Shown: in pieces, positions 4,782 to 33,332 of the stretch | Layout: every line of letters starts with the position of its first letter | Numbering within the stretch: the stretch's first letter is position 1 | Assembly: GCF_947494025.1 (NCBI RefSeq) | Contig: NZ_CANLTQ010000001.1 | Location: 124,001 to 188,000 of the forward strand | Source: an uncultured Jannaschia sp. | GTDB taxonomy: Bacteria; Pseudomonadota; Alphaproteobacteria; Rhodobacterales; Rhodobacteraceae | Length of the DNA: 64,000 nt | Direction of reading: 5' to 3' | Position numbers and translations under genes: made by a program | The notes under the pieces: model-generated | Database searches by the model: none | Told to the model about the DNA's origin: nothing | What the model saw: the letters and a program-made list of their open reading frames with translations, nothing else

Positions 4782-6248
4782 ATGTCGGGGACCCGAACGG
4801 ACGCAATGCTTGACGATTGGACGATGACCTTGAAGATCGGAGCCGCAGATCTGCTCTCTTCCCTGCCGCGAAGCTTCGCCATTATCGATCTCGACATGAT
4901 CTTTCTCGAGGCGAGCGACGGGTATCTCGAACTCACCGGACGCACGCGGGAACAACTGATCGGCAGCCATGTCTTCGAGAGGTTCCCCGATGTCACGTCG
5001 GATGCCGCCTCATCCGGAGACATCGTGCGCAACTCCTTCCGGCGCGTTTTCGAGACCGGACGACCCGACAAGCTCGATACCTACTATTACCCGATCGCCC
5101 CCTCTCCCGACGACGGTGCGCCGCAACGCCGATGGTGGCGGGCCGAGAACCGCCCGGTTTTTCGGAACGGGCGGGTCGTCGCGCTGATCCACGACGTCGA
5201 GGACGTGACCGCCGACGTGATCGCGCAGCGCGAACGCGACGTTCGGGACCGGCTGATCGAGAGCCTCTCCGACGTCGCGACCTGGCAGTTCCATCCGCAG
5301 TCACAGACCGTCATCGCCTCCGCCGCCTTGGCGGAAATGTGCGAGCTCGACGGCGAAACGGGCGACGTCCTGGTGGCGCCCTATCTCGACCGGGTCCATC
5401 CCGATGATCTGGAACGCGTCGTGTCGATCTTCGCGGCGAACGCGAACGCTCCCGCCGGAACTTCCGTCGACTTCGATTTCCGTGTCGTCACCCCGCAGGC
5501 AGGCGAACGCTGGTTCGCCTGCCGTTCCGAGCTCGTGCGGAGCGAACCGAACGCCCCGGCCGCATTCATTGGATTGTCCATCGACATTACGGAAGCCAAG
5601 ATGCGCGAAGTCGAGCTGACGCGCACGATCACCGAGCGCGACCGTCTGATCGAGCAGAAGGAAGTCTTGCTGGGCGAGGTCAACCACCGCATCAAGAACA
5701 GCCTCCAGATCGTCTCCTCGATCCTGAAGCTCGATGCGAGCCATGCGCACGACGAAAACATGCAAGGCCGCCTGCAGGCCGCCGCATCGCGGGTCCAGGC
5801 CGTCGCTTCGGTGCACGAGCTCATCTACCGCGCCGGTCAGGTCGATACGGTCGAGTTCGGCGAGTATCTCGGCGATCTCTGTCGCGCGATGGAGGACTCG
5901 CTGCCCCTGGAGATCGCGCTGATCCACGAATCTGTGCCGCTACGCGTTTCCACCGACCGTGCCATCTCGCTCGCGCTGCTGGTCAACGAACTGGTCGCCA
6001 ACTCGGCGACCCACGCCTTCCGGGACCGGAAGGACGGCACGATCGCGGTCCGGGCCGCCGTCAACGAGACGCGGCTGGAGCTCAGCGTCAGCGACAACGG
6101 CGACGGCCGGCCGGAGGCACCGGGCCATCGCGGCCTCGGCACGCGCATCATCGCGGCGATGGTTTCGCAGCTGGAGGCCGAACTTCGGCAATTCAGAGGG
6201 ACACAAGGCGGACATGTGGTCCACCTTTCGGTGCCGATCGACCGATGA
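4782..6248 (+). CDS. PAS-domain sensor histidine kinase, HisKA_2 family
   Basis: This 488-residue soluble kinase has two PAS domains (about residues 15-140 and 160-275) and then a HisKA_2 dimerisation helix. The phospho-acceptor His302 is in EVNHRIKNSLQIV. A HATPase domain follows with an N box NELVANSATHAF and a G box SDNGDGRP/GLGTRI. It has no transmembrane segment, so it senses a cytoplasmic cue through PAS, perhaps a cofactor. Start ATG 4782 is chosen because GGAGG lies six bases upstream; upstream ATGs give a low-complexity extension. Its stop overlaps the response regulator start (ATGA), so the two form a two-component operon. The first PAS lacks the LOV-type flavin cysteine motif. Confidence 0.9.
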   Translation: MSGTRTDAMLDDWTMTLKIGAADLLSSLPRSFAIIDLDMIFLEASDGYLELTGRTREQLIGSHVFERFPDVTSDAASSGDIVRNSFRRVFETGRPDKLDTYYYPIAPSPDDGAPQRRWWRAENRPVFRNGRVVALIHDVEDVTADVIAQRERDVRDRLIESLSDVATWQFHPQSQTVIASAALAEMCELDGETGDVLVAPYLDRVHPDDLERVVSIFAANANAPAGTSVDFDFRVVTPQAGERWFACRSELVRSEPNAPAAFIGLSIDITEAKMREVELTRTITERDRLIEQKEVLLGEVNHRIKNSLQIVSSILKLDASHAHDENMQGRLQAAASRVQAVASVHELIYRAGQVDTVEFGEYLGDLCRAMEDSLPLEIALIHESVPLRVSTDRAISLALLVNELVANSATHAFRDRKDGTIAVRAAVNETRLELSVSDNGDGRPEAPGHRGLGTRIIAAMVSQLEAELRQFRGTQGGHVVHLSVPIDR

Positions 6249-16790: not shown

Positions 16791-17379
16791 CGAGGCGTTT
16801 CCCTCCTATCGGGGAGTGACGGATCGCCCTGAACCGCAATGCCCAGGGATTTTTCCGGTCGGCTCCCATTACCGGGAAAACAGTTCGGGATCGCGATCGC
16901 CTCCGAATTTTGGACGCCTCCGCTTGCTGCCGATACGCTTGCGAAAGGCGGTCGGATCCGGTCGCTCGTAGCGTTACCAATCGCCGGCCCTCGGCGACCT
17001 TGCGTTCCGGGAACCCGAACCGTCCTCGAAGAGCCGTTCGCGCTTTGCGTTCAAAGCTGCCGCCTCGTGGGACACGCGCGGATCTCCGCGAGCCGACCGC
17101 GTTCCGATCCGCTCGGTCGGGGCAGACGTCGAGGATCGCGCCGCGTGCGATACGGACGGCAACCGGAGGAGCCGACCCGACCTGCGCCGCCGCGAACGGG
17201 CAACGTCACGCTCCAAGGGCGCTCCGTGGGGACCAGGTGTGAAGGACGGTTTGATTGCGATACACGACCGCCCGGGATCGGAGACGGCCCTGCTTTGGCC
17301 CGGGCGGAACAGCGGGATTCGGTCAGGCTTCGGCGCGATCACGTGACGAGCCACGTCTCGGCCTTCGATAAGCCCCTCG
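16791..17379. other. 589-base stretch with no recognisable gene
   Basis: Frames on both strands are rich in Arg and Ser and show no family motif, ribosome site or plausible codon pattern. Base composition is slightly more mixed than in the flanking genes. It may be a decayed gene or long spacer. I found no RNA gene in it. Confidence 0.5.
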
Positions 17380-17411
17380 AAAAAACCGCCGCGCTCCGAA
17401 GGAGGCGGCGG
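17380..17411 (-). terminator. rho-independent terminator of the small membrane-protein transcript
   Basis: On the minus strand CCGCCGC-CTCC, a short loop, then GGAG and GCGGCGG form a strong hairpin, with a run of six T directly after it. It lies about 147 bases after the stop of the 41-residue gene and would end that transcript. Confidence 0.85.
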
Positions 17412-17557
17412 TCAGGTTGCATCCCGACGCACGGGCAGTGAGCTGGCTCGGATGAGGCGGAGCCGACCGCGATGCCTCGGGGACGGAGGCGGCGGCAACT
17501 TACCGGCGTCGGGACGACCGGAAAGCGTTCGGCGCGGGATGCGGGCAGATCAGGTCG

Positions 17558-17683
17558 TCAGGCGATCAGGGCCGGCAGATGCAGAAAGCTCAGCATCAAC
17601 GTCACGAGCCACACGCCGCCAAGGATATCCGTCAGGGGTTCCCGGTCGATCCGGGCAAGGGCGATCTTGACCTTGTGTATCAT
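17558..17683 (-). CDS. small single-pass membrane protein, candidate SOS-induced
   Basis: This frame encodes 41 residues: a basic N-terminal part beginning MIHKVKIALARIDREPLTD, then a hydrophobic helix GGVWLVTLMLSFLHLPALIA that reaches the C-terminus. One transmembrane segment is predicted, with the N-terminus inside by the positive-inside rule. AGGTG lies six bases before ATG 17683. A perfect GAAC-N7-GAAC LexA box sits 59-73 bases upstream and a strong terminator 147 bases downstream, so it looks like a single SOS-controlled gene. Caulobacter SidA is a 29-residue SOS-induced membrane inhibitor of division. Analogy to SidA is inferred from size, topology and LexA control, not homology. Confidence 0.65.
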   Translation of the reverse strand: MIHKVKIALARIDREPLTDILGGVWLVTLMLSFLHLPALIA

Positions 17684-17741
17684 GGCGGCACCTGTTGCTA
17701 AGAGTTGCTACTTTGTTCTCATTTTCCCGGCCTCGTGTAAA

Positions 17742-17756
17742 GAACTTTTTAGGAAC
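17742..17756 (-). promoter_or_regulatory. LexA (SOS) box upstream of the 41-residue membrane-protein gene
   Basis: GAAC-TTTTTAG-GAAC reads on the plus strand, GTTC-CTAAAAA-GTTC on the minus strand. It matches exactly the GTTC-N7-GTTC box known for LexA of Rhodobacter and other alphaproteobacteria, and the box before lexA in this window. It lies after the recG stop, so it cannot serve recG, and points to the small gene. Three further GAAC copies follow at 17763, 17768 and 17773. Confidence 0.8.
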
Positions 17757-17783
17757 ATCCGCGAACAGAACGGAACGTGCAGC

Positions 17784-22955
<5,172 letters not shown>

Positions 22956-32564: not shown

Positions 32565-32593
32565 TTGACACAAAACGGGAACCTTAATAGAAC
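32565..32593 (+). promoter_or_regulatory. lexA promoter with overlapping LexA box
   Basis: TTGACA at 32565-32570 and TAGAAC at 32588-32593 are 17 bases apart. GAAC-CTTAATA-GAAC at 32579-32593 matches the alphaproteobacterial LexA box and covers the -10, fitting LexA autorepression. Confidence 0.85.
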
Positions 32594-32645
32594 ATTGCGT
32601 GACGGCGCTACTCACTGCGCGAGCTTATCGAGGAAAACGGGACCG

Positions 32646-33332
32646 ATGCTGACCCGCAAGCAACGCGATCTTCTAGCCTTCATCCACAAGCGCGTGCAGC
32701 GCGACGGCGTGCCGCCGTCCTTCGACGAGATGAAGGATGCGCTCGACCTGCGGTCGAAATCGGGCATTCACCGCCTGATTACCGCGCTTGAGGAGCGGGG
32801 CTTCATCCGCAGGCTCGCGCATCGGGCGCGGGCGATCGAGATCACGCGCCTGCCCGAAGACATGGGGGGCACGGGGTTCGTGCCGGAAGTGATCGAGGGA
32901 GATCGGCCGGACGCGACGCCGACCCGGGCCAGGCCGGTCGCCGTCGACGCGATGGAACTTCCCGTGATGGGACGCATCGCCGCCGGTGTGCCGATCGAGG
33001 CGATCAGCGAGGTTTCGAGCCAGGTGGCGGTGCCGAGCCAGATGCTGGGCCACGGGGGAACGCATTACGCACTGGAGGTTCGCGGCGACTCGATGATCGA
33101 CGCCGGCATCAACGACGGCGACATCGTCGTGATCCGCGAACAGCGGACGGCCGATGACGGCATGGTCGTGGTCGCCTTGGTGGAGGGACAGGAGGCGACC
33201 CTGAAGCGCTATCGTCGCTCGAACGGCATGATCGCGCTGGAAGCGGCGAATCCCGCCTACGAGACGCGCCTTCTGCGGGAGGATCAAGTCCGCGTGCAGG
33301 GCCGGCTGGTCGGACTGATCCGGACCTACTGA
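32646..33332 (+). CDS. lexA: SOS repressor LexA
   Basis: This 228-residue repressor has an N-terminal winged-helix DNA-binding domain ([35 protein letters not shown]). The C-terminal S24 peptidase domain contains the Ala113-Gly114 cleavage site ([11 protein letters not shown]), the nucleophile Ser149 ([10 protein letters not shown]) and Lys187 ([10 protein letters not shown]). RecA filaments trigger its self-cleavage after DNA damage. ATG 32646 has only a weak ribosome site. A LexA box overlaps its promoter 53 bases upstream. Confidence 0.96.

Follow-up and report, generated by a model that had tools for sequence, protein, structure and literature searches.

SidA of Caulobacter crescentus is described as a 29-residue inner-membrane protein that is induced in the SOS response and inhibits division by acting on the FtsW/FtsI/FtsN complex (PMC4211646). 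SOS-induced membrane division inhibitors have also been described in Bacillus (YneA) and Staphylococcus (SosA). Both are longer proteins, and YneA carries a LysM domain. Escherichia coli possesses SOS-regulated single-transmembrane peptides, TisB and DinQ, the latter being described as toxic and controlled by small RNAs. In Rhodobacter sphaeroides, small-protein transcripts that also yield RNAs are known: the ccaF1 mRNA, linked to oxidative stress, encodes the RNA-binding protein CcaF1 and gives rise to the sRNAs CcsR1-4 from its 3' UTR (PMC8625941), while the sRNA UdsC derives from the 3' UTR behind the hypothetical protein RSP_7527 (PMC9779115). In the literature searched, we found for Rhodobacteraceae neither a named SOS division inhibitor nor a small-protein mRNA with a 3' UTR-derived sRNA under SOS control.

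A conserved small gene behind recG

The window, the whole 64,000-nucleotide stretch of DNA from an uncultured Jannaschia sp. that was analysed here, carries recG on its minus strand (~17784-19868; 694 aa, with the Pfam domains DEAD, Helicase_C and RecG_dom3_C), followed on the same strand by a frame of 41 codons plus stop with an ATG start (17558-17683), predicted to encode a single-helix membrane peptide. A first-pass annotation had proposed this frame as a SidA-like, damage-induced factor, placed between a perfect LexA-type box, lying past the recG stop, and a strong terminator. The frame is exact, the box (17742-17756) is perfect and does lie beyond the end of recG, and the terminator (17380-17411, minus strand; a hairpin plus U-run) folds at -23.6 kcal/mol with a z of -4.4; a simple consensus terminator scan listed none at the locus. 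The ribosome site, which had been called well placed, reads CAGGTG and is modest. Right as it was on these elements, the annotation lacked two others, an opposed operator-like site (17704-17718, plus strand) and a predicted structured RNA (17413-17552, minus strand), both of which are considered below.

The 41-aa protein was searched against 60 genomes and gave matches in 20/20 genomes of the genus and 0/40 of the others. An alignment of the genus matches (A1), searched against the family with one genome per genus, matched 67/295 genomes, and the same alignment widened with family matches to 36 rows (A2) placed the peptide gene in 251 of the 295 sampled Rhodobacteraceae genera. Twenty of the 44 genomes without an A2 match were re-examined. 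The RecG tail was present in 17 of these, with a usable flank in 16; twelve flanks held, directly after recG, a hydrophobic frame of 36-47 aa together with one or more perfect boxes, and at the other four (L262-L265, from G099, G027, G060 and G097) recG was present with neither frame nor box behind it. A search of 240 genomes of the class gave five matches, three of them in Rhodobacteraceae, while the two weak matches outside the family (E 0.005 and 0.009) lay in frames of 193 and 619 codons and were taken as chance. Plasmid and phage collections, queried with one relative's protein, gave no match to the frame.

Named relatives carrying the gene, of which the best 80 of 223 were taken, include Ruegeria pomeroyi (strain SZCCDBG043), Phaeobacter, Leisingera, Sulfitobacter, Rhodovulum and Frigidibacter. 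A dN/dS of ~0.10, calculated over 203 pairs, each at least 80% identical and drawn from the 72 of the 80 named copies that were of equal length, indicated purifying selection. Together with 20 loci of the genus and 44 from other genera, the named relatives, many of which are Ruegeria, made up 144 scorable loci, with some loci alike between the named set and the others; in 143 of them recG was the immediate upstream neighbour, in the same orientation. Protein-level conservation of the frame, to which the earlier reading of this DNA had looked, was found across most of the sampled genera, and its place behind recG and its box recur in nearly all of the scorable loci. The comparison marks the 41 codons as a genuine gene.

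Members of the peptide family range from 36 to 47 residues. A variable N-terminus is followed by a C-terminal hydrophobic helix with a near-strict pattern of D, G, L and LP, and the final 20 residues are free of charge in 36/36 members. In the window peptide the best 17-residue hydropathy (2.06) falls at residues 24-40. The topology of the peptide is uncertain, since the N-terminus is net positive in only 19/36 members. No Pfam or NCBIfam family fitted the window protein or the 36 members, the sole NCBIfam match being to one member at E 0.09, which is chance level. A YneA-type protein was ruled out by domain, there being no Pfam match to LysM in the window protein or the 36 members.

Promoter sites and the LexA question

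The box at 17742-17756 (minus strand; GTTCCTAAAAAGTTC) is an exact GTTC-N7-GTTC, reading GAAC-N7-GAAC on the plus strand. The pattern occurs three times in the window against 1.85 expected, a number reached in 29/100 shuffles, and 138 times in the whole genome, where the reversed pattern has 36 copies. Another perfect copy lies at 5513-5527 (plus strand). As a single box is not rare, its significance must come from comparison. A perfect box was present within 200 nt of the frame in 141/144 loci (20/20 in the genus, 43/44 in other genera and 78/80 in named relatives), and the 141 box-bearing promoters comprise 130 distinct sequences; the counts leave out two duplicates (L121, L123) and three loci that were too short to allow the fixed offset. 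The three loci that lack the box are L201 and L204, which carry GTTC at N6 spacings, and L076 (refetched as L256), which has a perfect GAAC-N7-GAAC in its place.

The promoters share the consensus TTTGTTC-N6-GTTCTcAaAAAGTTC-TTTACa ... TGAGAACAAA-N4-CAAC. Abutting the box in the window is a putative -35 hexamer, TTTACA (17736-17741, minus strand), and among the 141 promoters this hexamer is TTTACA in 89, TTTACC in 24 and TTTACT in 16. A third GTTC half-site (17763-17766, minus strand) stands N6, or one turn, upstream of the box, and recurs in 130/141 promoters. This is one of the extra GAAC copies that the first-pass annotation had thought might strengthen binding; for the other two, looked at without a count, no such conservation was seen. 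Downstream of the box, the opposed site at 17704-17718 (GTTG-N7-GTTC on the plus strand, GAAC-N7-CAAC on the minus) covers the presumed -10 and start. An opposed GAAC-N7-NAAC was found in 141/141 promoters, at one fixed distance in 129, with an outer half of CAAC in 135, AAAC in 3, TAAC in 3 and a perfect GAAC in none. The sites persist in the 12 diverged loci recovered on re-examination, where the opposed site is a perfect GAAC-N7-GAAC in 7/12. The AT-rich locus L268 (G133) retains a 36-aa frame but, of the boxes, just the opposed GAAC one. The composite GTTC-N7-GTTC-TTKAC was present as a single copy, at the peptide locus, in 10/12 genus genomes and absent from the other two, and its reversed-pattern control gave no match in 12/12. 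A sigma-70 consensus scan of 16800-18400 gave no antisense promoter.

These half-sites and their spacing are those of lexA and recA in the same bacteria. GAAC-N7-GAAC was found within ~500 nt at 42/42 lexA loci of the family, within 150 nt at 40 of these, and in 12/12 genus lexA promoters; genus recA promoters carry the same half-sites at N7 spacing in 12/12, with an opposed perfect pair in 7/12. The recA promoter of the window's own genome (G000:C2:130547-130593; loci L042, L043, L111) has GTTC-N7-GTTC followed by an opposed GAAC-N7-GAAC. The window itself contains a lexA region (32565-33326, plus strand; gene from ~32646, lexA model match from 32649), some 15 kb from the peptide locus, whose promoter reads TTGACA-N17-TAGAAC with the operator (GAACCTTAATAGAAC, 32579-32593, plus strand) over the -10. 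Among the own-genome boxes, of which 30/138 were inspected by eye, lexA and recA were the only SOS genes recognised nearby. A matrix built from 40 lexA operators ranked the window box 71st among the 100 own-genome boxes listed, and gave scores of 16.2 for the family boxes, 11.9 for other boxes and 15.6 for the family boxes with their own interiors shuffled; the N7 interior was thus uninformative as to LexA identity. The LexA box of Caulobacter is described as GTTC-N7-GTTC too (PMC12700426). Our assignment to LexA is made on the half-sites, their spacing, their conservation and the perfect opposed site in 7/12 diverged loci. Comparison of the loci strongly supports the first-pass annotation in placing a tiny, conserved membrane protein under putative control of the LexA type, and its SidA-like label fits the anatomy, a very small product with one predicted hydrophobic helix and an SOS-type promoter.

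A structured RNA in the 3' UTR

In counts of 9-mers 3' of the frame, the words CTGCCTG and CCTGTCCC recurred, and the loci proved to share a terminator. A predicted transcript end was found in 132/144 loci, at a median of ~184 nt past the stop codon, and the word GCGGTTTTT occurs downstream in 109/144. Within this ~180-nt 3' UTR, many single-sequence folds agree on a plan in which an outer stem encloses three hairpins whose loops are rich in C and U. Plain MAFFT alignment followed by RNAalifold, on 39 or 32 3' UTRs, recovered the terminator only. A covariance model (R1) was therefore built from 11 sequences that could be aligned, with a manually assigned structure. Run on 79 loci, R1 matched 32 times at E < 0.002, seed members accounting for 7 of these; on a partly overlapping set of 66 loci there were 47 matches (10 seed members). 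In both cases they fell in the 3' UTR only.

In the resulting alignment of 47 rows, 45 of them distinct, 90.3% of pairing cells were paired and 29/31 pairs showed double changes, with 206 double-change cells against 49 when shuffled. The covariation score was 0.395, as against 0.132 for shuffled and at most 0.10 for slid alignments, and 0/500 shuffles reached any of the five measures taken, a test that favours the structure in that the alignment was fitted to it. Pairing is poorer in hairpin 2, at just 75% of cells. Unpaired motifs of the CUGCC/GUCCC type (CUGCC, CUGUCCC and UCCCC in the loops) occur in the 5' tail in 44/47 rows, in loop 1 in 38/47, in loop 2 in 46/47 and in loop 3 in 19/47, which suggests several like contacts, whether with mRNAs or with a protein. 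When arms of the outer stem were swapped between loci, a locus's own arm beat every swap in 3/16 cases within the genus and 6/40 within the family, with means for own and swapped arms of -14.8 and -11.0 kcal/mol (genus) and -13.8 and -10.7 kcal/mol (family); the swaps lend the outer stem moderate support. The mean fold z was -3.3 over 16 genus loci and -2.7 over 56 loci in all, 54 of which were negative.

A second model (R2), built from the 47 rows matched by R1, was run on whole genomes and matched 17/61 at E <= 0.01, once in each; five of the 17 were themselves sources of rows in the model. The match lay right beside the frame in 15/15 genomes checked, that is, in all of the 17 other than G075 and G032. 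With the stricter filters used, 44/61 genomes, the window's included, gave no match at E <= 0.01, and in these the copy is either too diverged or absent. The covariance models of Rfam 15, run on six loci, gave seven matches at E <= 5, all below the gathering score; one of these, BcKCsr2, overlaps the RNA in L059 at 18.1 bits against a gathering score of 40 (E 3.7). CcaF1 is a DUF1127 protein, and the CcsR loops carry CCUCCUCCC. The ccaF1 locus was ruled out as an equivalent, as there was no Pfam match to DUF1127 and CCUCCUCCC occurred in 1/144 3' UTRs. UdsC was dropped as the same locus, being a 67-nt RNA described with an RpoHII-dependent promoter (PMC9779115). Comparison across the loci shows the RNA structure in the family.

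The window's own copy is a diverged one. The best R2 match in the window coincides exactly with the 3' UTR (17413-17552, minus strand), with a predicted outer stem pairing 17535-17542 with 17419-17426 around three hairpins. It scored 16.1 bits, for an E of 0.36 over 211 kb and 0.0003 for that stretch alone. R2 scored at most 17.5 bits, and never reached E 0.01, in 59 control loci drawn from lexA, recA and frameless recG, and since this exceeds 16.1 the window's score alone proves nothing. The case for it rests on position and on comparison within the genus: R2 matched 11/20 genus loci at E <= 10, some of the matches short, all at the predicted place and none outside it. Single folds of 16 genus 3' UTRs mostly share the plan, L002, L009, L015 and L019 not clearly so. 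The fold z in the window is -2.5 for the whole element, whose end was chosen to include the 3' arm of the outer stem, and 0.2 with that arm cut off. The 3' UTRs of L003, L015 and L016 share a TCTGACACCTTCGGCC hairpin ahead of the outer stem's 3' arm, which may mark a subgroup of the RNA in the genus.

Proposed mechanism and alternative explanations

Coding, promoter sites, recG linkage and the family RNA structure all emerge from comparison, and they lead us to propose, with confidence that comes close to even but falls short of it, a LexA-repressed, damage-induced unit that would make a SidA-like division-brake peptide and a 3' regulatory RNA. We infer that LexA would bind the perfect box at the -35 and the weaker opposed site over the presumed -10 and start, with the third half-site contributing, and so keep the gene silent. 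The SOS response is released by RecA-driven LexA cleavage. DNA damage would in this way remove LexA and allow a transcript of ~330 nt, reaching up to the terminator. Its 5' part would be translated into a single-pass inner-membrane peptide of ~40 residues, putatively a damage-induced brake on septation in the manner of SidA, perhaps at the FtsW/FtsI/FtsN step. Its 3' part would fold into a junction RNA, with the outer stem, three hairpins and C/U-rich loops, which, either intact or cut from the mRNA, could use its repeated loops to pair with mRNAs or to hold a protein. An alphaproteobacterial membrane protein this small, behind a promoter of the SOS type, brings SidA to mind; a division brake seems the most likely role for the peptide, if at slightly less than an even chance. 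The fuller reading, a two-product SOS effector whose peptide stops septation while its RNA, with its C/U loops, rewires translation, we hold only as a tentative possibility, because none of the 141 promoters has a perfect opposed site, 17/36 N-termini are not net positive and 44/61 genomes gave no RNA match.

The size and hydrophobicity of the peptide and its SOS-type promoter would equally suit a peptide of the TisB/DinQ kind, DinQ being an SOS-regulated toxic single-transmembrane peptide under small RNAs, which would lower the membrane potential and slow growth while the RNA limited its translation. Type I toxins are, however, expected to be patchily distributed, whereas this gene occurs in 251/295 genera, fixed behind recG (143/144) and under strong purifying selection, and we regard such a toxin as unlikely. 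Many small membrane proteins modulate larger ones, and the plan of the RNA is no less well conserved than the peptide, so that the peptide might address some other inner-membrane target, such as a protease, a transporter or an envelope enzyme, with the RNA as the main regulator; but none of our results suggests such a partner and the SOS link favours a role in damage, making this, too, improbable.

The 3' structure might instead do no more than stabilise the mRNA or serve termination, with no separate regulator, since it is always read here within the mRNA, with the terminator at its end. Against this, its loop motifs recur unpaired, beyond what stability needs, and covariation in the outer stem and the hairpins is separate from the terminator; we doubt that it is an mRNA element only. 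As to the sites themselves, the triple N6/N7 spacing departs from the plain LexA form, nothing in the N7 interior speaks specifically for LexA, and where lexA operators typically have TGTTC the right half here has AAAGTTC, all of which could point to a different regulator. Yet the half-sites and N7 spacing match those of 42/42 lexA loci and 12/12 genus recA promoters, and diverged loci switch to a perfect GAAC-N7-GAAC, so that a regulator other than LexA seems very unlikely.

Comparison with known systems

No prior report of the frame, the promoter or the RNA was found in the top-ranked papers of the literature searched. The kinds are known, namely an SOS membrane brake and a dual-function transcript; that literature describes neither the protein family nor the RNA, nor the two together. 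Rhodobacteraceae matter both in the sea and among phototrophs, and the locus offers for them a candidate SOS division inhibitor, one that is carried by most sampled genera and can be tested in cultured strains such as Ruegeria pomeroyi. The structured RNA, without a match in Rfam, is a possible riboregulator induced by damage; should both parts act, the locus would produce a dual-function SOS transcript, and if the two-product reading is true, damage would be met at the membrane and the ribosome at once.

Like SidA as it has been described, the peptide is a tiny and putatively inner-membrane protein of an alphaproteobacterium, behind a GTTC-N7-GTTC promoter box (PMC4211646, PMC12700426). Unlike SidA, with its 29 residues, it has 41 here and 36-47 across the family, and the two are likened by anatomy and not by sequence. 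The descriptions of SidA consulted make no mention of a structured RNA at the 3' end, whereas one is predicted at the peptide locus (PMC4211646, PMC12700426). YneA and SosA differ in belonging to another phylum and in being longer proteins. In contrast to the RNA-antitoxin loci of DinQ and TisB, the present locus is fixed and core-like, with a 3' UTR that covaries. It resembles ccaF1-CcsR and RSP_7527-UdsC in having an RNA in the 3' UTR behind a protein frame. With a conserved frame and a conserved RNA between one presumed promoter and one terminator, it is a candidate dual-function mRNA/sRNA transcript.
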